Shown: one piece after another, positions 30,997 through 44,383 of the stretch | Position numbering within the stretch: position 1 is the first letter of the stretch | Layout of the letters: every line of letters begins with the position of its first letter | NCBI GenBank assembly: GCA_021462845.1 | Contig: JAJTXU010000009.1 | Coordinates: 1 to 44,383 of the forward strand | Direction: 5' to 3' | Length of the DNA: 44,383 nucleotides | Origin: Anaerolineales bacterium | Lineage (GTDB): Bacteria; Chloroflexota; Anaerolineae; Anaerolineales; Villigracilaceae | Translations under genes and position numbers: made by a program | The notes under the pieces: model-generated | What the model was told of the DNA's origin: nothing | Seen by the model: only the letters and a program-made list of their open reading frames with translations | Databases searched by the model: none

Positions 30997-31030
30997 AACA
31001 GCCCCGCCTCTGCGCGGGGTTGTGTTTTTT
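30997..31030 (+). terminator. Terminator of greA
   Basis: AACAGCCCCGC and GCGGGGTTGT form a stem with one bulge, followed by TTTTTTT. Confidence 0.8.
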
Positions 31031-31036
31031 TGCGGG

Positions 31037-31096
31037 CAAGTAGATATGGAAACAGGTAGACATGGAGACACGTAGACAAGTAGACAGGTATACACG
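31037..31096 (+). repeat. Degenerate octamer tandem array (consensus CANGTAGA)
   Basis: Seven to eight consecutive 8-base units such as CAAGTAGA, CAGGTAGA, CATGGAGA, CACGTAGA and CAGGTATA are seen. The same unit family occurs inside priA at 41599-41638. Confidence 0.75.
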
Positions 31097-31304
31097 GTTG
31101 CAACTACGTTCGTTGATAAGATCGTGGTCTCATGAAAAAAGATTAGCGAGAATTGCGCTAATCCGCGACTCCCCTGACATGCTCAGGTTAAACGATGCGA
31201 ATGAAGCCCAATAGAATTCGTGTAATTCGCTCGTTCGCGGCATTCGCGTTAAGAACTTTCCGATCTTGCGCAAGCCAGGCAGGTATACAGACATGCGCTT
31301 GCCT

Positions 31305-31336
31305 TGTGTACCTGTCTACCTGTATACTTGTGTACA
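31305..31336 (-). repeat. Octamer array in opposite orientation
   Basis: Four 8-base units TGTGTACC, TGTCTACC, TGTATACT and TGTGTACA are the reverse complement of the CANGTAGA family seen at 31037-31096. Confidence 0.65.
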
Positions 31337-31365
31337 TCCTCCGTTTTTAACTCTTTGGTGAAATT

Positions 31366-33836: not shown

Positions 33837-33915
33837 CCTACAAGATCTTAAACCTTCGTGCTCTTCGTGTCCTTCGTGGTAAAAAAAGAATCCTCGCAGT
33901 GATAAAATTACATCA

Positions 33916-36922: not shown

Positions 36923-39900
36923 TTATATATTCGGCATTTCCTCGATAATCTTCATCGTCTCAACAGACACTGTACAAACCCTCATCAACAAATCAATAAC
37001 CTGCTCTTTGTAATCTGCAAAGCGATATGTGTTGAACTTCTCCGCAATCGTTGGATCTTTGGGCTTCTTCTCTTTGTACCGTTCCAGTATCCATTCCAGT
37101 GCTGAATAGGTTCCCAGCCGATACTCCCACGCCTCCGCAGGGACGCCTTCCAGCGTCGTTATCGTATCCACTTCGATTAAGCCATTCTCCTTACGCGCCA
37201 TCAAGCGCGTCGTAGGTGAGACCTCCGAAGTTTTGTCAACTCTCTCCAACGAATATGGCTCGACGCTCTCATACTCCAGATGCAATTCCACCAACTTCTT
37301 GCCCCAATTTGCCCATTTCCAAAAGTCGCTATAGAAAGGAATACGCGGAAACTCGCGCTTGAGGTTGATCTCATACTTGGCTCGATATGCGGGATGGTGT
37401 AGGACGGCATACACGTAATGGAAAATATCTTCTTTGGTGATTTTCTTATCTTTGTATTTCTTTTGAAACTGCCCCAATGCCCAATCGGTGATATTCTCTA
37501 CGCGCTCGCCCGACTCGCTATAACGGTAGAGCGGGAGACATTGCGAGTCGCCGTTGAAATGCAAATCAGGAACGGAATTCACAGACAACACATTAAATTG
37601 TTTGCCGTTCATATTCATACAGATCGCAAGGTTATCTGGTTGCTCGCCAATTGGAAAGAAGTTCGGTTGTTGATATGGACGATGAACAATTACCATGTCA
37701 TAGTAAAGTGGACGCTTTACAAATGGACGATACATTGCCGTTGTAATTTTCTCTTTGCTAAACTCAAGAGTGGTGCCGCGTTTCAAGTGCGCTTCCAGTT
37801 CACTTGTCCATTTTATAGAACGATCAACAAAATCGTTCAATGCCTTTTTCTTATCAGAGTGCGCCCAACGTTCCTTCTCGTTTTCAAACAAGTCAAAGAA
37901 GTGTCTGATTTTCTTTTCAAGCATTTCAGGGTCTTCGTCATAAACCCATTCGTCGCGGTTGGTGGCAACACCCAAAGAAAAGTTCTTGAAAATCGTCTTT
38001 GGCTCTTTAACGCCCTTTTCGGCTTTGCCTTCCTTGCTCGCAATCGGAATCAGGTCATCCCAATCGTTATCTGATTGGTTGATCCAGTTGTGGTTTTTGT
38101 CGGGTCGAATGGGCTGAAACTTCAAGTCGGTGATTTTATTCTCGCGCAAATACCCTTGCTTATCTTCGGCATTTGCATAATCGGCAATAGCGTTGTAGTG
38201 GATATGGCAACCTTTTGCCCCTTTTTTGCGGACAAGAAAATAGACAGCCACGCCAACACGAATTTGGTCACTGAAAATATTTCCACCTTCTTTGCGTCGT
38301 TGCTCGCCACTGGTGCGGGCATCGCCTTTTAGGTCAACAACATAAATATCGTTAAATTCATCGGCAACGACTTTCCGAAAGCCATCATAACTTTTGGCGT
38401 TTAGAAATGAATTGTTTGAGACAAATGCAATTACGCCATCTTTATCAAGACGGTCGCTTGCCCAACGCAGAAAGCGGACGTACATATCATACAGTTTTGT
38501 TTTTTGCGCTGTGCTGTAATAGATATAAGTATCTTTAATTCGCTGGTCAATCTCAGGATATTCTCGATTCTTATTGTTTTCGTTTTCATTGGCTTGGTTG
38601 GCGTTATACGGCGGATTGCCAATCACGACCATAATCGGCTTGCTGTTCTGCTTCACAATTCTTTCCGCGTTCGCATCCGTCATCCCAAAGAAATTCAACT
38701 GCTTGCCTGTGTGTTCAAAGCCCATATTATCGAGCGTGTCTACAAAGCAAATATTTTCGAACTCATTGAACTTGCCCGTCTTCTGCTTGTAGGTGTACTC
38801 GATATTCAGATTGGCGATGTAGTATGGCAGAATCGAAACTTCATTGCAATGCAGTTCATGGTTGTACTTGTATTCCAACTGCGCAGGCGGCAAATACTCG
38901 ATTAGTTCCGTGATGAATGTCCCTGTTCCTGTTGCAGGATCTAAAATCTCCACGCCCTTGTCGCCCAGCGTCTTGCCGAAGTGCTTATACACCAAATGGT
39001 CTGCGCTCTCGATCATGAAGCGCACGATCTCGTCGGGCGTGTACACGATTCCGAGTCGATCCGCCGCCTTTGGGTTATACGCCTTGTAAAAACTCTCGTA
39101 CAAAGCCTTCAAGAATTTCTGCTTTTCGTGATGGTCGCTGATCTGCGAAGCCCGCGCATTGATCGTCTCGTAATACGGGGCGATCTTTGCGTGGATATTC
39201 TTCTTGGTGTCGCCCCGATAGAACGTGCCTGCCACTTCCGCTAGTTTGCTCGCGATCACGTTCTCGCGATGGAACTCCGCTTCATCGAACACGCGCATAA
39301 AAATATCTTCCGTCAACACGTGTTGGATGATCATCTCGCGCACGTCCGCCATTTCGATCTTCGGGTTGATAGCCTTTTTCGCTAGTTCCAAGAATTGACT
39401 CAACGCCTCTGCGAACGCCGAATTACTATTTACCTGATTGCCAATTACTTCTCTCAGAACTTCCGCCAATCCACCTACCTCCGCGCTGAACAACTCAATG
39501 GCTTTATGAAATTCTGAAACTTCCTTTGGTTCATAACTGACAAAACGGGTGATGAGTGTATCCAATGCTTTCGCATCGCTAAAGTTTGCGCGTAAAACTT
39601 CGTTTCCACTCTGATACAGAATCGCCGTGCGCGTATCTTCAAACAAAATATTGAACGACGGATACCCCTTATTGAATTTCGCTTTTACCTCCGCTTCGAT
39701 GTCGTCCTTTTCGTCTTTCGACTCCCAAAACCCCCAATCTTGCCGCAACGCATCCTTCAAAACGCCATCGGGACGAATCCGCGTCCCTTTCTTCGATTCC
39801 ATTTCAACTTCGGCAACCAACACCAAACTCTTTGCCCGCGCATACCCTTCCAACAGATCCTGAAACGGTTTCCGCAGTGAACTTTCATTCCGCGAACCGC

Positions 39901-39958
39901 CGTAGCGAATGATCTTGTCAATTTCAGCGTAATATTTTTGAATGAGTTGAATGGACAT
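36923..39958 (-). CDS. Single-chain restriction-modification enzyme (type IIG/ISP-like)
   Basis: This 1011-residue protein appears to combine nuclease, methylase and target-recognition parts. The N-terminus has a PD-(D/E)xK-type site: Pro63-Asp64, then Glu79-Ser-Lys81 (FWESKD). The adenine methylase core has the AdoMet motif LDPATGTGTF near residue 340 and catalytic NPPY at 448-451. The rest (about 600-1011) resembles the recognition region of type ISP enzymes. The SF2 helicase domain of true type ISP enzymes is missing, so type IIG-like action is more likely. The gene is visibly more A+T-rich than its neighbours, which suggests horizontal acquisition. The first 40 bases upstream are followed by a stranded priA fragment on the other strand. 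Confidence 0.88.
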   Translation of the reverse strand: MSIQLIQKYYAEIDKIIRYGGSRNESSLRKPFQDLLEGYARAKSLVLVAEVEMESKKGTRIRPDGVLKDALRQDWGFWESKDEKDDIEAEVKAKFNKGYPSFNILFEDTRTAILYQSGNEVLRANFSDAKALDTLITRFVSYEPKEVSEFHKAIELFSAEVGGLAEVLREVIGNQVNSNSAFAEALSQFLELAKKAINPKIEMADVREMIIQHVLTEDIFMRVFDEAEFHRENVIASKLAEVAGTFYRGDTKKNIHAKIAPYYETINARASQISDHHEKQKFLKALYESFYKAYNPKAADRLGIVYTPDEIVRFMIESADHLVYKHFGKTLGDKGVEILDPATGTGTFITELIEYLPPAQLEYKYNHELHCNEVSILPYYIANLNIEYTYKQKTGKFNEFENICFVDTLDNMGFEHTGKQLNFFGMTDANAERIVKQNSKPIMVVIGNPPYNANQANENENNKNREYPEIDQRIKDTYIYYSTAQKTKLYDMYVRFLRWASDRLDKDGVIAFVSNNSFLNAKSYDGFRKVVADEFNDIYVVDLKGDARTSGEQRRKEGGNIFSDQIRVGVAVYFLVRKKGAKGCHIHYNAIADYANAEDKQGYLRENKITDLKFQPIRPDKNHNWINQSDNDWDDLIPIASKEGKAEKGVKEPKTIFKNFSLGVATNRDEWVYDEDPEMLEKKIRHFFDLFENEKERWAHSDKKKALNDFVDRSIKWTSELEAHLKRGTTLEFSKEKITTAMYRPFVKRPLYYDMVIVHRPYQQPNFFPIGEQPDNLAICMNMNGKQFNVLSVNSVPDLHFNGDSQCLPLYRYSESGERVENITDWALGQFQKKYKDKKITKEDIFHYVYAVLHHPAYRAKYEINLKREFPRIPFYSDFWKWANWGKKLVELHLEYESVEPYSLERVDKTSEVSPTTRLMARKENGLIEVDTITTLEGVPAEAWEYRLGTYSALEWILERYKEKKPKDPTIAEKFNTYRFADYKEQVIDLLMRVCTVSVETMKIIEEMPNI

Positions 39959-40039
39959 GGAAGTAGAATCCCGTATTCTTGTTTCAATTATAGCAAACGA
40001 TTACCCCCGATAAGCATTTCCAGTTACAATCCTCCCCCA

Positions 40040-40180
40040 ATGACCTCCTTCGTTCAAATCGTCGTCAACGTGCCAGCCATTGCGGGCGTGTTCGATTATG
40101 TCGTGCCTGAATCCCTCACAGAGAAAGTGGGAGTCGGGCATTTGGTCATCGTCCCGTTTGGGAATCAAAACGCCTTGTAA
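40040..40180 (+). pseudogene. Truncated 5' fragment of a diverged priA gene
   Basis: Forty-six codons starting MTSFVQIVVNVPAIAGVFDY match the start of the intact priA at 40770, including the promoter-like TACAATCCTCCCC before the ATG. About 45 codons align with 11 synonymous and 9 amino-acid-changing differences; among the first 20 codons only three differ, all synonymously. Homology ends abruptly and the frame stops in a hairpin. The fragment could still be expressed as a short peptide, but it is best seen as a remnant. Confidence 0.9.
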
Positions 40181-40204: not shown

Positions 40205-40224
40205 GTTGTAATCAAGCAAACAAG

Positions 40225-40455
40225 TTAGGCGGATAAAGCCAATTCTTTCACAAGTGTTTGAGGGAGTGAAATAGGGGAGAATAAACTGGCAGGGAAGAGA
40301 TAATCTTCACCCGTCTCATCAATTACGCGCAACATTTTGTGGCTTTCCGCTTCTTTGTCAGGCAGCACTTGATAAATTTTGCGCGGTTCGAGCGAAGCCT
40401 CGTAACCGTCATTTCTGAGACAGACGACAAATTGAGTGGATGTTTTTGTATTCAT
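40225..40455 (-). CDS. Small protein, second gene of a paired cassette (76 aa)
   Basis: This 76-residue soluble protein contains FVVCLRNDGYEASLEPRKIY and RVIDETGEDYLFPASLF, which look like a small SH3-like beta fold. I have no firm family name; similar short proteins occur widely in Cyanobacteria and Chloroflexota, from memory. It starts 2 bases after the stop of the 81-residue gene, so they are one transcript. The compact two-gene layout resembles a toxin-antitoxin module, but neither gene is identified as such by motif. Confidence 0.7.
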   Translation of the reverse strand: MNTKTSTQFVVCLRNDGYEASLEPRKIYQVLPDKEAESHKMLRVIDETGEDYLFPASLFSPISLPQTLVKELALSA

Positions 40456-40457
40456 GG

Positions 40458-40703
40458 TTATTTTCTAAGTATTCGCTTTATCTTGATATCGCGTTTTCCA
40501 ATTCCATGCGCTTCATACCAGTGGATTTCGGCAAAATAAATCGTGTCATCGGGTAAGCGGACGCTTGCCAAACCTTTCAACTTTCTCCAACGACCTCTTC
40601 CATGCTTTTTCTGCAACCGATCGAGATCGCGGATTGAATTTCCGATTGCAATGATTTTGACCTCGGTGATTTCGCTGACAACCTCGATTTCATCGGTCTG
40701 CAT
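40458..40703 (-). CDS. Small basic protein, first gene of a paired cassette (81 aa)
   Basis: This 81-residue protein begins MQTDEIEVVSEITEVKII and has a strongly basic middle (LQKKHGRGRWRKLKG) and end (KRDIKIKRILRK). Its EIHWYEAHGIGKRDIKIK block suggests a nucleic-acid-binding or small toxin-like fold, which is speculation. I chose the ATG at 40703 because TATAAT (40713-40718, minus strand) ends 9 bases before it; the longer open frame would overlap the priA coding start on the other strand. Confidence 0.65.
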   Translation of the reverse strand: MQTDEIEVVSEITEVKIIAIGNSIRDLDRLQKKHGRGRWRKLKGLASVRLPDDTIYFAEIHWYEAHGIGKRDIKIKRILRK

Positions 40704-40733
40704 GGTGAGGTAATTATACTCCTCTTGTTTGAT

Positions 40734-40761
40734 ATGACAGACTTGTTTGCGATGATACAAT
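40734..40761 (+). promoter_or_regulatory. Promoter of priA
   Basis: ATGACA (40734-40739) and TACAAT (40756-40761) are 16 bases apart, and the -10 ends 8 bases before the ATG. It is divergent from the TATAAT of the small-gene pair (40713-40718). Confidence 0.6.
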
Positions 40762-40769
40762 CCTCCCCA

Positions 40770-43223
40770 ATGACCTCCTTCGTTCAAATCGTTGTCAACG
40801 TGCCAGCCATTGCGGGTGTGTTCGACTATTCCATTCCCGAATCCCTCGCAGGGACTATCGGTATCGGTCACCTCGTCATCGTCCCATTTGGGAAGCAGAC
40901 CGCGCAGGGAGTTGTCCTCCGCTTCATTGACCAGCCCTCGGTGCGCGATGTGAAAGAGGTCATCGAATTCGTTGATCCTGAACCTGTCCTCACGCAGGCG
41001 CAGATCGCGTTGGCGGAGGCGATGGCAGAGTCCACGCTCGCGCCGTTGGCGGCGGTGGTGGGATTATTTTTGCCTGTGGGGTTAAGTCAGCAAGTTGACA
41101 CCATGTACGAATTACGAATTACTAATTACGAATCACAGATTGATTCCAAATCCATCAGCCCAAAGACTCAACGATTGACAATTGAAGATCGCCTCCTGAA
41201 TTTATTGCGAACTCGCGGCTCGTTGCGCGGACGTCAAATTGATTCACACTTCGCCAAAGTGGATTGGCGCAAGACAGCGGGCTTTCTCGTGAGGAAAGGT
41301 GTGCTGACGGCGCGGTCTGTGTTGCCGCCGCCGAGGGTGCGATCAAAGTTCATTCGCGTGGCACAGCTCGCAGTCACGCCCGAAGAAGCGGAAGCCGAGA
41401 TGCCGAATCTGGGGATGAAGCAAACGCTCGCGCGGAGACAGTCCGCGTTGCGATTCTTGATCCGACAGCCCGAAGCGGTCAACGTCTCGTGGGTGTATGC
41501 CGAAAGCGGATGCAATCTCTCCGACTTGCAGGAACTCGAAGAGCGCGGGTTGATCCGATTGTTCGAGAGTGAAGTGTTTCGGGATCCTCTTGAGAAAACA
41601 CGTAAACACGGAAACACGGAAACAAGTAAACAGGTAATCGAACTCACTCCTGAACAAAATATTTCTCTGAATGAAATCGTGGGCGCAGTACGCAGTACGA
41701 AATACGCAGCATTTCTTCTTTACGGCGTCACAGGCTCAGGCAAAACAGAAATTTATTTACGCGCCGCCGAAGAGGTGGTGAAGCGCGGCAAACAAGTGAT
41801 CGTGCTTGTCCCCGAAATCGCGCTCACGCCGCAGACCGTGCGACGATTTTTGAATCGATTCCCTGGGCAGGTGGGGCTTGTCCATTCGAAACTTTCAGAG
41901 GGCGAGCGATACGACACATGGCGACGCGCGCGCGCTGGAAAACTCAAGGTCATCATCGGAGCGAGAAGCGCGTTGTTCGCGCCTCTGCCGAACATTGGTC
42001 TCATTGTTGCGGATGAATGTCACGACTCGTCGTTTCATCAAGCCGAGCCGCCGTTCTATCACGCGGTGACTGCGGCTCAAACCTACGCGCGTCTCTGCGG
42101 TGCGGTCTGCGTGATGGGTTCCGCCACGCCGACGATTGAACAACGATTCAAATCGGAAATGAATCAACTTCATAAATTGGATTTACCCAAGCGCATCGTC
42201 GAGTCGGGATTACCTCCCGTCCACATCGTGGACATGCGCGACGAACTTAAAGCGGGTCAACGCGGGATATTCAGTCGGCTTCTGCTTCGTGAGCTTGAGT
42301 CCACCCTCCAGCGCGGCGAGCAAGCGATCCTCTTCCTCAACCGACGCGGGACATCCACGTATGTCTTCTGCCGCGATTGCGGACATGTGTTGAAATGTCC
42401 CAACTGTGATACGCCGCTCACGTTCCATACCGAAGATAAAGAGCGCTTGCTCTGTCATCAATGCGGATACGAACGCGGCAAGCCGAAGAGTTGTCCGCAA
42501 TGTGGAGGCAAGCAGATCCGCGAGTTTGGACTTGGAAGCGAGAAGGTCGAAGCGGAGGTCAACGCGTTGTTCCCCAAAGCGCGGACATTGCGCTGGGATT
42601 GGGATACGACCCGTCAAAAAGACGCGCACGAAATGATCCTCACGCATTTTGCGAATCACAAAGCGGATGTGTTGGTCGGCACGCAAATGCTTGCAAAGGG
42701 ACTCGACTTGCCAATGGTCACTCTCGTTGGCATCGTGCTGGCGGATGTGGGCTTGCATCTGCCCGATCCGTTCGCGGGCGAGCGCGTTTTTCAAGTGTTG
42801 ACTCAAGTGGCGGGGCGCGCGGGTCGCAGTGAACGCGGCGGGAAAGTTGTCCTGCAAACGTTTGATCCTGCGAATCAAGTCATTCAATCCGCGGCGCGGC
42901 ATGACGTGGACGGCTTTTATCAATACGAGTTGGAGAATCGCAAGCGGCTGGGATATCCGCCGTTCGCGCGTCTGGTGCGACTAGAATTTCGAAGCGACGA
43001 CCAAGCGTCGGCTGAGAAAGAAGCGAAGCGCGTCGCGGAGAAATTGTCAACCGTCCATCGTCCATCGTCGGCTGTTATCGGACCCGTCCCGTGTTTCTTT
43101 TCCAAAGTGGCGGGGTTGTATAGGTGGCAGATCGTCCTGCGCGGATCGAATCCAAAAGAAATTTTGCGTGACGTTAAACTCGACGGCTGGCGCGTCGAAG
43201 TTGACCCGATTAGTTTGCTATAA
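40770..43223 (+). CDS. priA: Primosomal helicase PriA
   Basis: This 817-residue 3'-5' helicase restarts stalled replication forks. The N-terminal fork-binding domain starts MTSFVQIVVNVPAIAGVFDY. The helicase has Walker A GVTGSGKTEIY with Lys325, the DECH box at 415-418, and motif V/VI blocks VGTQMLAKGLDLP and QVAGRAGRSERGGKV. The zinc-binding insert with CRDCGHVLKCPNC and CHQCGY..CPQCG lies at about 534-590. The protein is longer than the usual 730-800 residues, partly because four short tandem-repeat arrays lie in the coding sequence at linker positions. The start at 40770 matches the conserved N-terminus. Confidence 0.97.
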   Translation: MTSFVQIVVNVPAIAGVFDYSIPESLAGTIGIGHLVIVPFGKQTAQGVVLRFIDQPSVRDVKEVIEFVDPEPVLTQAQIALAEAMAESTLAPLAAVVGLFLPVGLSQQVDTMYELRITNYESQIDSKSISPKTQRLTIEDRLLNLLRTRGSLRGRQIDSHFAKVDWRKTAGFLVRKGVLTARSVLPPPRVRSKFIRVAQLAVTPEEAEAEMPNLGMKQTLARRQSALRFLIRQPEAVNVSWVYAESGCNLSDLQELEERGLIRLFESEVFRDPLEKTRKHGNTETSKQVIELTPEQNISLNEIVGAVRSTKYAAFLLYGVTGSGKTEIYLRAAEEVVKRGKQVIVLVPEIALTPQTVRRFLNRFPGQVGLVHSKLSEGERYDTWRRARAGKLKVIIGARSALFAPLPNIGLIVADECHDSSFHQAEPPFYHAVTAAQTYARLCGAVCVMGSATPTIEQRFKSEMNQLHKLDLPKRIVESGLPPVHIVDMRDELKAGQRGIFSRLLLRELESTLQRGEQAILFLNRRGTSTYVFCRDCGHVLKCPNCDTPLTFHTEDKERLLCHQCGYERGKPKSCPQCGGKQIREFGLGSEKVEAEVNALFPKARTLRWDWDTTRQKDAHEMILTHFANHKADVLVGTQMLAKGLDLPMVTLVGIVLADVGLHLPDPFAGERVFQVLTQVAGRAGRSERGGKVVLQTFDPANQVIQSAARHDVDGFYQYELENRKRLGYPPFARLVRLEFRSDDQASAEKEAKRVAEKLSTVHRPSSAVIGPVPCFFSKVAGLYRWQIVLRGSNPKEILRDVKLDGWRVEVDPISLL
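41106..41140 (+). repeat. Heptamer tandem array in priA (TACGAAT x4)
   Basis: TACGAAT, TACGAAT, TACTAAT and TACGAAT are followed by CACAGAT. It encodes the linker YELRITNYES. Confidence 0.85.
41599..41638 (+). repeat. Octamer tandem array in priA (CACGGAAA-like x5)
   Basis: The units CACGTAAA, CACGGAAA, CACGGAAA, CAAGTAAA and CAGGTAAT encode the charged linker KHGNTETSKQV. They resemble the octamers in the greA-lysS spacer. Confidence 0.85.
41685..41712 (+). repeat. Heptamer tandem array in priA (GCAGTAC-like x4)
   Basis: The units are GCAGTAC, GCAGTAC, GAAATAC and GCAGCAT, just before the Walker A motif. Confidence 0.75.
43050..43070 (+). repeat. Heptamer tandem array in priA (ATCGTCC-like x3)
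   Basis: The units are ACCGTCC, ATCGTCC and ATCGTCG, encoding TVHRPSS near the C-terminal domain. Confidence 0.65.
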
Positions 43224-43234
43224 TCAATTGAGCA

Positions 43235-43376
43235 TCGGTGGTCGAGTAGTGGCGCTGAAAGCGCCACGTATCGAGACCACCACGTTGTAAAGTAATTCTT
43301 GTTACAAAAATCTGTACGCGAACCTGTGGTCTCGATACATCCCGCGACGAACATCGCGGGACTACTCGACCACCGA
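43235..43376. repeat. Compound inverted repeat (142 bp) between priA and the DUF6159 gene
   Basis: Outer arms TCGGTGGTCGAGTAGT (43235-43250) and ACTACTCGACCACCGA (43361-43376) are perfect 16-bp inverses. Inner arms GTATCGAGACCAC (43268-43280) and GTGGTCTCGATAC (43326-43338) are perfect 13-bp inverses. Between them lie the hairpins TGGCGCT-gaa-AGCGCCA and CCCGCGA-cgaaca-TCGCGGG. Confidence 0.9.
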
Positions 43377-43393
43377 GATTAAGAGGAGTCTAC

Positions 43394-44305: not shown

Positions 44306-44315
44306 TAAAAACGAA

Positions 44316-44359
44316 TCTTTCTTCTTTCATCTTTCCTCGAGAGCATGAAAGAAGAAAGA
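44316..44359. terminator. Palindrome after the DUF6159 gene
   Basis: TCTTTCTTCTTTCAT and ATGAAAGAAGAAAGA pair perfectly over 15 bases around a 14-base loop. The A/T-rich stem lacks a clean T tail, so the terminator role is tentative. Confidence 0.6.
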
Positions 44360-44383
44360 GGAAAGACTGATTCTCCCTCGTGC

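Follow-up and report, generated by a model that had tools for sequence, protein, structure and literature searches.

Short 7- and 8-bp arrays inside priA of an Anaerolineales bacterium belong to repeat families scattered through the genome

The priA gene of an Anaerolineales bacterium, carried on a 44,383-nt stretch (positions 1 to 44,383 of contig JAJTXU010000009.1, assembly GCA_021462845.1; hereafter the window), contains four different short tandem arrays with units of 7 or 8 bp, and thus raises the question of whether these arrays are a peculiarity of one gene or the local trace of a wider process. The sequence-only reading of this DNA took them for repeated expansions or insertions tolerated at the domain borders of priA. 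Our results show that the priA arrays are members of repeat families scattered through the genome, and that one protein linker can carry different repeat families across congeners (priA linkers 1 and 4, murJ, recJ and xseA). The gene and its arrays, as delimited by Tandem Repeats Finder (TRF), are the following.

40725..43223, + strand: priA, primosomal protein N' (replication restart helicase), 832 aa counted from the first TTG, host of the four arrays
41106..41133, + strand: array 1, period 7, 4.0 copies of TACGAAT, AATTACN family, read through as YELRITNYE
41596..41637, + strand: array 2, period 8, 5.2 copies of AAACACGT, GTANACAN family, read through as KTRKHGNTETSKQ
41684..41709, + strand: array 3, period 7, 3.7 copies of CGCAGTA with 78% match, read through as AVRSTKYAA
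43052..43069, + strand: array 4, period 7, 2.6 copies of CGTCCAT, in a loop of the C-terminal domain, read through as STVHRPSSA

The identity of the gene follows from its domain content (Pfam: PriA_3primeBD at 21-117, DEAD at 329-470, Zn_ribbon_PriA, Helicase_C and PriA_C at 746-814) and from matches to solved PriA structures (PDB 9zbu, 8fak and 4nl4; E as low as 4.7e-111). All four arrays, three of period 7 and one of period 8, were recovered by TRF, and the coordinates first read from the letters proved correct to within a few bases. The proposed location at domain borders holds for arrays 1 to 3, which lie in the linker C-terminal to the 3'-DNA-binding domain (aa 128-139), in the linker N-terminal to helicase lobe 1 (aa 292-305) and a few residues ahead of the Walker A motif GVTGSGKT, which starts at 334 (aa 321-330), respectively; it fails for array 4 (aa 776-782), which is found within the PriA_C match and at no domain border. 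The full units of array 2 are GTAAACAC, GGAAACAC, GGAAACAA and GTAAACAG, with partial units at the ends; this array is therefore nearer to GTANACAN than to CACGGAAA, and since two of its units start with GGA it is not an exact match to (GTANACAN)3. The CGCAGTA-type family of array 3 is also present in the priA genes of G010, G012, G017 and G015 and in murJ of the own genome (G000) and of G017, and the site of array 4 holds different heptamers, and also longer versions, in congeners. No inverted partner of the arrays was seen in priA on inspection by eye.

That four such arrays in one gene are unlikely by chance, as had been claimed, was borne out by third-order Markov simulations scored by lag matches: at a lag score of at least 10, the window contains 5 period-7 and 3 period-8 segments, against a Markov value of 0.0. 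Chance or composition as the origin was ruled out by these simulations. An artefact of assembly could still be suspected from the window being a contig of a fragmented draft genome (contig 352 of 362, 4.17 Mb in total), but with a Markov expectation of about zero, and with comparable arrays both in a single-contig congener (G012) and at homologous positions of separate assemblies, chance, composition and assembly together retain a practically negligible probability. The protein itself was used as a second control, with 2000 random synonymous recodings of the same PriA protein and the best lag score per array. Arrays 1 to 4 scored 15, 22, 10 and 11, compared with recoding means of 2.1, 3.8, 0.3 and 1.2, and the observed score was reached by only 2, 0, 1 and 6 of the 2000 recodings, respectively. 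The DNA repeat is therefore no consequence of the PriA peptide. Selection for polar linker or coiled-coil peptides might otherwise have made the repeats, given that a 7-nt repeat yields a 7-residue periodic peptide and that linker 2 of xseA keeps a constant length in 19 of 19 sequences; with recodings that almost never yield repeats, and with the same families present in spacers, we regard this origin as very improbable.

The repeat population was then described in a sample of 591 kb, made of 20 evenly spaced 20-kb stretches of G012 (400 kb) and of 20 contig starts of the own genome (191 kb). At a score of at least 12, the G012 sample gave 15 period-7 and 8 period-8 segments, with a single one of period 12 and none of periods 3-6, 9-11 and 13; the own-genome sample gave 10 period-7 and 5 period-8 segments, with one each of periods 4 and 9 and none of the others between 3 and 13. 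Markov controls for periods 7 and 8 were 0.0 for both samples. Above 13, the commonest periods were 14, 16, 21 and 24, i.e., multiples of 7 or 8, with one or two cases elsewhere. The ranking remained the same across tests, with period 7 first, period 8 second and the other periods from 4 to 13 rare, and two 50-kb stretches of Escherichia coli K-12 contained no segment at score 11 for periods 3-16.

The families AATTACN, AATCTCC/ACTGGAG, AAATCGT, AAAGAGG, AATTCTCC and GTANACAN are recurrent, and the same families do occur in spacers elsewhere in the genome, where the sequence-only reading had suggested looking for them. Counted as exact patterns with overlapping matches included, (AATTACN)3 has 33 matches in 27 separate arrays of the own genome, priA array 1 among them. 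For (GTANACAN)3, the own genome gives 64 matches and G014, the runner-up among 37 genomes, 304, with none in 18 of the 37; its reversed control has 0 matches in any of the 37. The highest count, 1068, belongs to one 3.5-Mb genome, G019, in which 22 octamer arrays lie within the 386 kb examined. Arrays of TTACGAA were found in 13 of the 61 genomes in the relatives set and in 8 of 251 genomes sampled from the phylum, both of which sets contain the own genome. An exact 28-nt version was found, among the matches listed, in records whose titles name Cyanobacteria, Bacteroidetes, Acidobacteria, Verrucomicrobia, Chloroflexi and others. Period 7 is also dominant around 80 loci among these matches, a sample itself selected by a heptamer. 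Few heptamers besides AATTACG, itself the query, are common to several phyla among the matches listed, and we therefore make no claim of a universal set.

The units of these families combine a near-fixed core with free positions. Among 48 GTANACAN units taken from 12 arrays, each core position is the same in 42 to 48, whereas position 4 (A24 G14 C7 T3) and position 8 (A22 G15 C10 T1) vary freely; the free position of AATTACN is the seventh (C28 G15 T9 A5; 57 units, 18 arrays). Both counts are biased, since the arrays were picked by core match and include some orthologous copies. A seed-based octamer count without N positions (7 arrays), which mixes neighbouring heptamer families, nevertheless gave non-modal fractions of 0.62 and 0.52 at two positions against at most 0.14 elsewhere. 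When position 3 of AATTACC was varied, the own genome gave 6 matches, with T in all. A shifted octamer pattern gave 0 matches, although this control is weak: with A required at the two free positions of three units, no more than about one match would be expected. An array that arose by slippage and then simply decayed would not show this pattern. In G019, the free positions of the octamer are C- and G-rich (N4 = C48 G52 A18 T11), and 8 of the 22 octamer arrays stand in close inverted pairs whose arms differ at the free positions; only 4 such pairs were available, and they gave no sign of complementarity at these positions (3 of 11 and 1 of 7 equal, below shuffled means).

A nearly invariant core would also be expected if it were a putative DNA or RNA binding site of some factor, maintained in spacers by selection, the copies inside genes being by-products. 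Such a site would accord with the agreement of the GTANACAN core in 42 to 48 of 48 units beside two N positions that take all four bases, with the same core in other genera with a different base use at N (G019), and with the regulatory role that MacGregor 2015 proposes for TAACTGA repeats in the portion of PMC4679880 consulted. However, the count of 48 units carries the bias of core-match choice and orthologous copies, spacer arrays are not kept at the same place between congeners, and the matches to (GTANACAN)3 range from 0 to 1068 among 37 genomes. Altogether, we consider a functional site distinctly unlikely as the explanation.

The location of the arrays relative to genes was determined with home-made gene calls (coding density 0.889) for segments with a score of at least 11, one overlapping period-7/period-8 pair being counted twice. 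Among the 53 segments of the 591-kb sample, 23 are inside genes, 3 inside but near an end, 14 across a gene end (7 of which overlap it by at most 4 nt) and 13 intergenic. With 89% of the DNA coding, this split means that genes are depleted of arrays, yet far from avoided by them. The in-gene segments are 18-52 nt long, and their hosts, by NCBIfam, include recJ, xseA, aroA, aroE, murJ (in both genomes), queA, eutC, elp3, nuoL, the C-terminal part of gyrA and an fdrA-like gene, as well as genes with sub-cut-off matches to amidase, TolB-like and anti-sigma models. These are in-frame arrays in unrelated protein-coding genes, the trait known from Rickettsia palindromic elements. In addition, recJ holds 3 arrays inside the gene, xseA 2 and 1 near its start, and aroA 3 and 1 across its end, so that priA, with four arrays of which three reach score 11, belongs with the most array-rich genes but is not the only one. 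The idea that priA is special was thus not upheld, as other core genes likewise hold three or four of them. Among in-gene arrays whose unit can be read without a stop on a single strand, that strand was the sense strand in 7 of 7 cases of the random sample and in 27 of 32 cases of the orthologue sets, in which cases are not independent. In 5 of the 23 in-gene arrays, the consensus unit contains a stop whichever strand is read; these arrays survive because they are short or imperfect.

The same protein sites were compared across species, with priA sequences from 15 congeners and 14 members of other genera (29 sequences) and with arrays scored at 10. Within the genus, an array is present at priA linker 1 in 7 of 15 congeners (AATTACG, AAATCGT or AATTACC), at linker 2 in 4 (octamers), at linker 3 in 5 (CGCAATA/CGCAGTA) and at linker 4 in 6 (CGTCCAT, ACCATCA or CAGTGAT type); outside the genus, 5 of 14 have an array anywhere in the gene. 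In murJ, CGCAGTA occupies the site in the own genome and G017, and AGTCTCC followed by AATTACC in G010 and G012. At recJ linker 1, 8 of 18 sequences have an array, of the types AATTAC-, ACGATGG-, AAAGTCG-, AAAGGTC- and ACCGTAG-, and 4 more of the 18 have a palindromic element by eye. This element, of the GCCGACTTCAGTCGGC type, lies in frame at L295, L293, L296 and L299 (G011, G015, G002 and G012, respectively). At xseA linker 2, which has 31 residues in 19 of 19 sequences, an array is present in 6 of 16 congeners and in 1 of 3 sequences outside the genus (G021), and the family changes from AATTACC in the own genome to AATCTCC in G010 and G004, CTCCAGT in G012 and CACTTTC in G007 and G001. Even the own genome and G010, with nucleotide identities of 0.89 (priA), 0.84 (murJ), 0.87 (xseA) and 0.83 (recJ), differ clearly in family at three sites, namely murJ, xseA linker 2 and the latter half of recJ linker 2. 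They share the family at priA linkers 1-3, at xseA linker 1 and in the initial portions of both recJ linkers (the first part of linker 1 and the first half of linker 2), and are ambiguous at priA linker 4 (CCATCGT versus CCATCAA). Since other genes behave alike and one linker holds different families across species, the priA arrays are not four private expansions, and the earlier interpretation is, overall, partly supported.

Its expectation that the linkers differ among relatives in length and sequence, partly by repeat units, did hold, and linkers of fixed length and sequence did not occur among the 29 aligned sequences. As an example, most congeners (12 of 15) have a priA linker 4 of 33 or 34 aa; G016 has 38, G007 40 and G001 47, and the last two, which are sisters, differ by 21 nt, i.e., three heptamers. 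Likewise, xseA linker 1 has gained 15 nt in G017 relative to G012 (AATTACG plus AATTACCC, 7 + 8), and priA linker 3 is longer by 9 nt in G012 and G017 than in G010 (one heptamer and 2 nt outside the heptamer). Stops in the aligned orthologues were found only at the extreme match ends (priA 1 of 29, murJ 1 of 21, recJ 0 of 18, xseA 2 of 19).

Changes of this kind could also come from non-autonomous insertions like Rickettsia palindromic elements, moved by a putative enzyme and tolerated in frame in loops. The murJ linkers give some weight to insertion, since the six shortest (26-27 aa) have no array and the seven with a score-10 array measure 28-37 aa, as do the tree-incongruent cassettes in murJ and recJ described below and the GCCGACTTCAGTCGGC-type palindromic element in recJ linker 1 of G015, G011, G002 and G012. 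However, a scored array is also missing from murJ linkers of 31-33 aa and from one of 40 aa, the number of copies changes by single units, xseA linker 2 was altered at constant length, and neither a terminal structure, inverted repeats included, nor a target duplication, the marks of DNA transposons or MITEs, was noticed by eye, no systematic search having been made. We therefore hold insertion by a mobile element to be unlikely.

The cassettes at two sites, in murJ and recJ, conflict with the concatenated tree and with the larger part of each gene's flanks. In the concatenated tree, G000 is joined with G010 (0.996) and G012 with G017 (1.000); the latter pair is recovered in four of four single-gene trees, and the priA and recJ trees place G000 and G010 with weak support. 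In the array window of murJ, the identities are nevertheless 0.74 for G000-G017 and 0.70 for G010-G012, versus 0.60 for G000-G010 and 0.61 for G012-G017, a pair with 0.86-0.95 in the other ten windows. In recJ, the two linker-1 windows give 0.63 and 0.76 for G012-G017 versus 0.84-0.96 in the other windows before position 1800; at this site, G012 shares the palindromic element with G011, G002 and G015, and G017 shares the AATTACC type with G000 and G010. Judged from these alignments, either an exchange of short tracts by recombination between lineages or the independent, repeated writing of one family would fit.

Taken together, we favor, with a probability of roughly 0.6, the explanation that the four arrays are part of a larger repeat population, lineage-wide and dispersed across the genome, of short degenerate tandem arrays of period 7 or 8, which slippage or template switching would have created, which would spread as patches and which reading frame and protein tolerance would then filter. 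What was observed directly is that such arrays exist, prefer periods 7 and 8, are dispersed, lie inside genes, swap families, change length in steps that keep the frame and conflict with the tree at two sites. As for the steps, slippage or template switching that favors jumps of 7-8 nt would give rise to the arrays and lengthen them; the arrays may then spread as short patches copied between sites and between species; and selection would purge the copies with an in-frame stop, a broken frame or a hit on an essential residue, leaving those in linkers and loops. Several results weigh against this explanation. No polymerase, recombinase or birth event was observed. Slippage alone explains neither the free positions beside a near-fixed core nor the same families at unrelated loci, and it is inadequate for xseA linker 2, where the DNA turned into a repeat without a change of length. 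The phase of the arrays also resembles that of orthologues without an array (rank 1 among 446 family-phase choices for 29 of 62 cases; ranks 1, 5, 11, 22, 26, 173 and 333 at recJ linker 1), although decayed arrays and protein selection confound this comparison. The murJ window directly ahead of the array leans toward G000-G017 as well (0.86 versus 0.83), and the exchanged tract may therefore exceed the array. Finally, at the laxer score of 10, multiples of three (6, 9, 12, 27 and 30) also exceed the Markov value, as codon structure would give the same. A bolder version can be put forward only tentatively, and we give it a low probability: a dedicated copying process with steps of 7-8 nt, a nearly invariant core and one or two free positions per unit might time and again overwrite short patches of DNA, including the loops of core proteins, which would leave a single linker with different repeats in close relatives and would amount to mobile, self-templating DNA without transposon structure.

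The spacers of the window contain further arrays.

31040..31096, + strand: octamer array of the GTANACAN family, intergenic
31305..31335, - strand: octamer array of the GTANACAN family in inverted orientation, in the same spacer as 31040..31096
44315..44366, no strand assigned: inverted pair of CTTTCTT/AAGAAAG heptamer arrays (TRF), beyond the gene next to priA

Orthologous spacers of the window carry, by eye, different repeats in different species. The spacer at 31028-31365 has octamers in the own genome and an inverted repeat of the GTCATTGCGAG type in G012, and at most short remnants of the array at 31040..31096 were seen by eye in the same spacer of G012, G011, G015, G007 and G006. The spacer after 44305 has the CTTTCTT/AAGAAAG inverted pair in the own genome, G012 and G011, and an inverted repeat of the AACCGCTAAG type in G010 and G015 (by eye). 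Such spacers also hold a further class of repeat, with period 9 (CCTTCGTGC, at 33853-33878). A large inverted repeat (GGTGGTCGAGTAG ... CTACTCGACCACC) lies at 43230-43380, on the 3' side of priA; it has variants in G010 and G017, is replaced in G012 by a GTCATTGCGAGG-type inverted repeat and was not noticed in G011 or G015.

On its other side, the 5' end of priA is duplicated (40023-40164 and 40756-40900, 84% identical over 140 nt), the upstream copy being a truncated fragment. Two small minus-strand open reading frames (ORFs; about 40220-40705) lie between the copies, of which the one of 137 aa has no NCBIfam match, and both copies match a single place in the aligned regions of G010, G011, G015, G012, G017, G007 and G006. 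Judged from this arrangement, the duplicated start looks like the product of an insertion that duplicated or re-supplied the 5' end. Further upstream, 36923-39958 on the minus strand encodes a 1011-aa match to Type ISP restriction-modification proteins (ISP_coupler, N6_Mtase and Type_ISP_C, E 7e-99), with no nuclease or helicase match within the ORF; this block adjoins priA and is absent from G010.

The value of these arrays lies in the comparison that they allow: the same protein site can be followed through about fifteen related species, some of which have repeats there and some none, and the differences include swaps of family, steps that preserve the frame and a rewrite that leaves the length unchanged. 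Such a comparison makes an old curiosity a measurable process and reveals a source of loop variation in core enzymes, and the preferred free positions provide a concrete clue to mechanism or function.

Heptamer repeats are known from several bacteria, the STRR of cyanobacteria among them. The arrays described here are tandem, have units within 5-11 nt, are longer than expected with heptamers commonest, and differ in copy number among close relatives. Indeed, Mrazek et al. 2007, as summarized in the part of PMC4679880 consulted, found heptamers to be the most abundant class and suggested that 7 nt may reflect polymerase contact; in the consulted parts of these sources, the likeness extends to the dominant period 7, a degenerate unit position, dispersal, length variation in close relatives and the proposed slippage with 7-nt polymerase contact. 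PMC4692102 gives, in its consulted portion, GGGNATC of Xanthomonas and GGGGA(C/T)T of Nostoc as examples, with 89% and 93% of arrays intergenic in two Xanthomonas. A mostly intergenic location, usual rather than strictly defining, is not seen here (13 of 53 intergenic plus 7 overlapping a gene end by at most 4 nt, versus 23 inside genes), but membership in the broad heptamer class stands despite the in-gene location. What sets the present arrays apart from bacterial heptamer repeats is that period 8 is about half as common as period 7, that many families coexist and that orthologous linkers swap families.

The CAGTGAT-type repeat of priA linker 4 (G001 and G012; variants in G007 and G014) is one base off TAACTGA on the opposite strand. 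TAACTGA repeats occur in Beggiatoaceae, Cyanobacteria and Bacteroidetes, in Maribeggiatoa mainly just upstream of start codons, and MacGregor 2015 noted their protein read-through LSVISYQ (PMC4679880, consulted portion); in the same portion, and unlike the arrays here, they are not described as interchangeable linkers of core proteins. Rickettsia palindromic elements (Ogata 2000, 2002, as cited in the consulted part of PMC10969869) lie in frame in many unrelated genes and are tolerated by the protein, as are the present arrays; they are, however, palindromes of about 100-150 bp in families with a conserved peptide, whereas our arrays are tandem and 18-52 nt long. Repeats of phase variation switch the frame of surface or regulatory genes, in contrast to the mostly core enzymes found here, with stops only at match ends. 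Interchangeable 7/8-bp arrays in orthologous linkers of core proteins were not found in the literature searched (mostly titles and abstract openings, with few subscription papers), and the consulted parts of this literature leave the origin of bacterial heptamer repeats open. Altogether, the arrays of priA and of its companion genes are ordinary in kind, as heptamer-class repeats, and unusual in their extent and behaviour.

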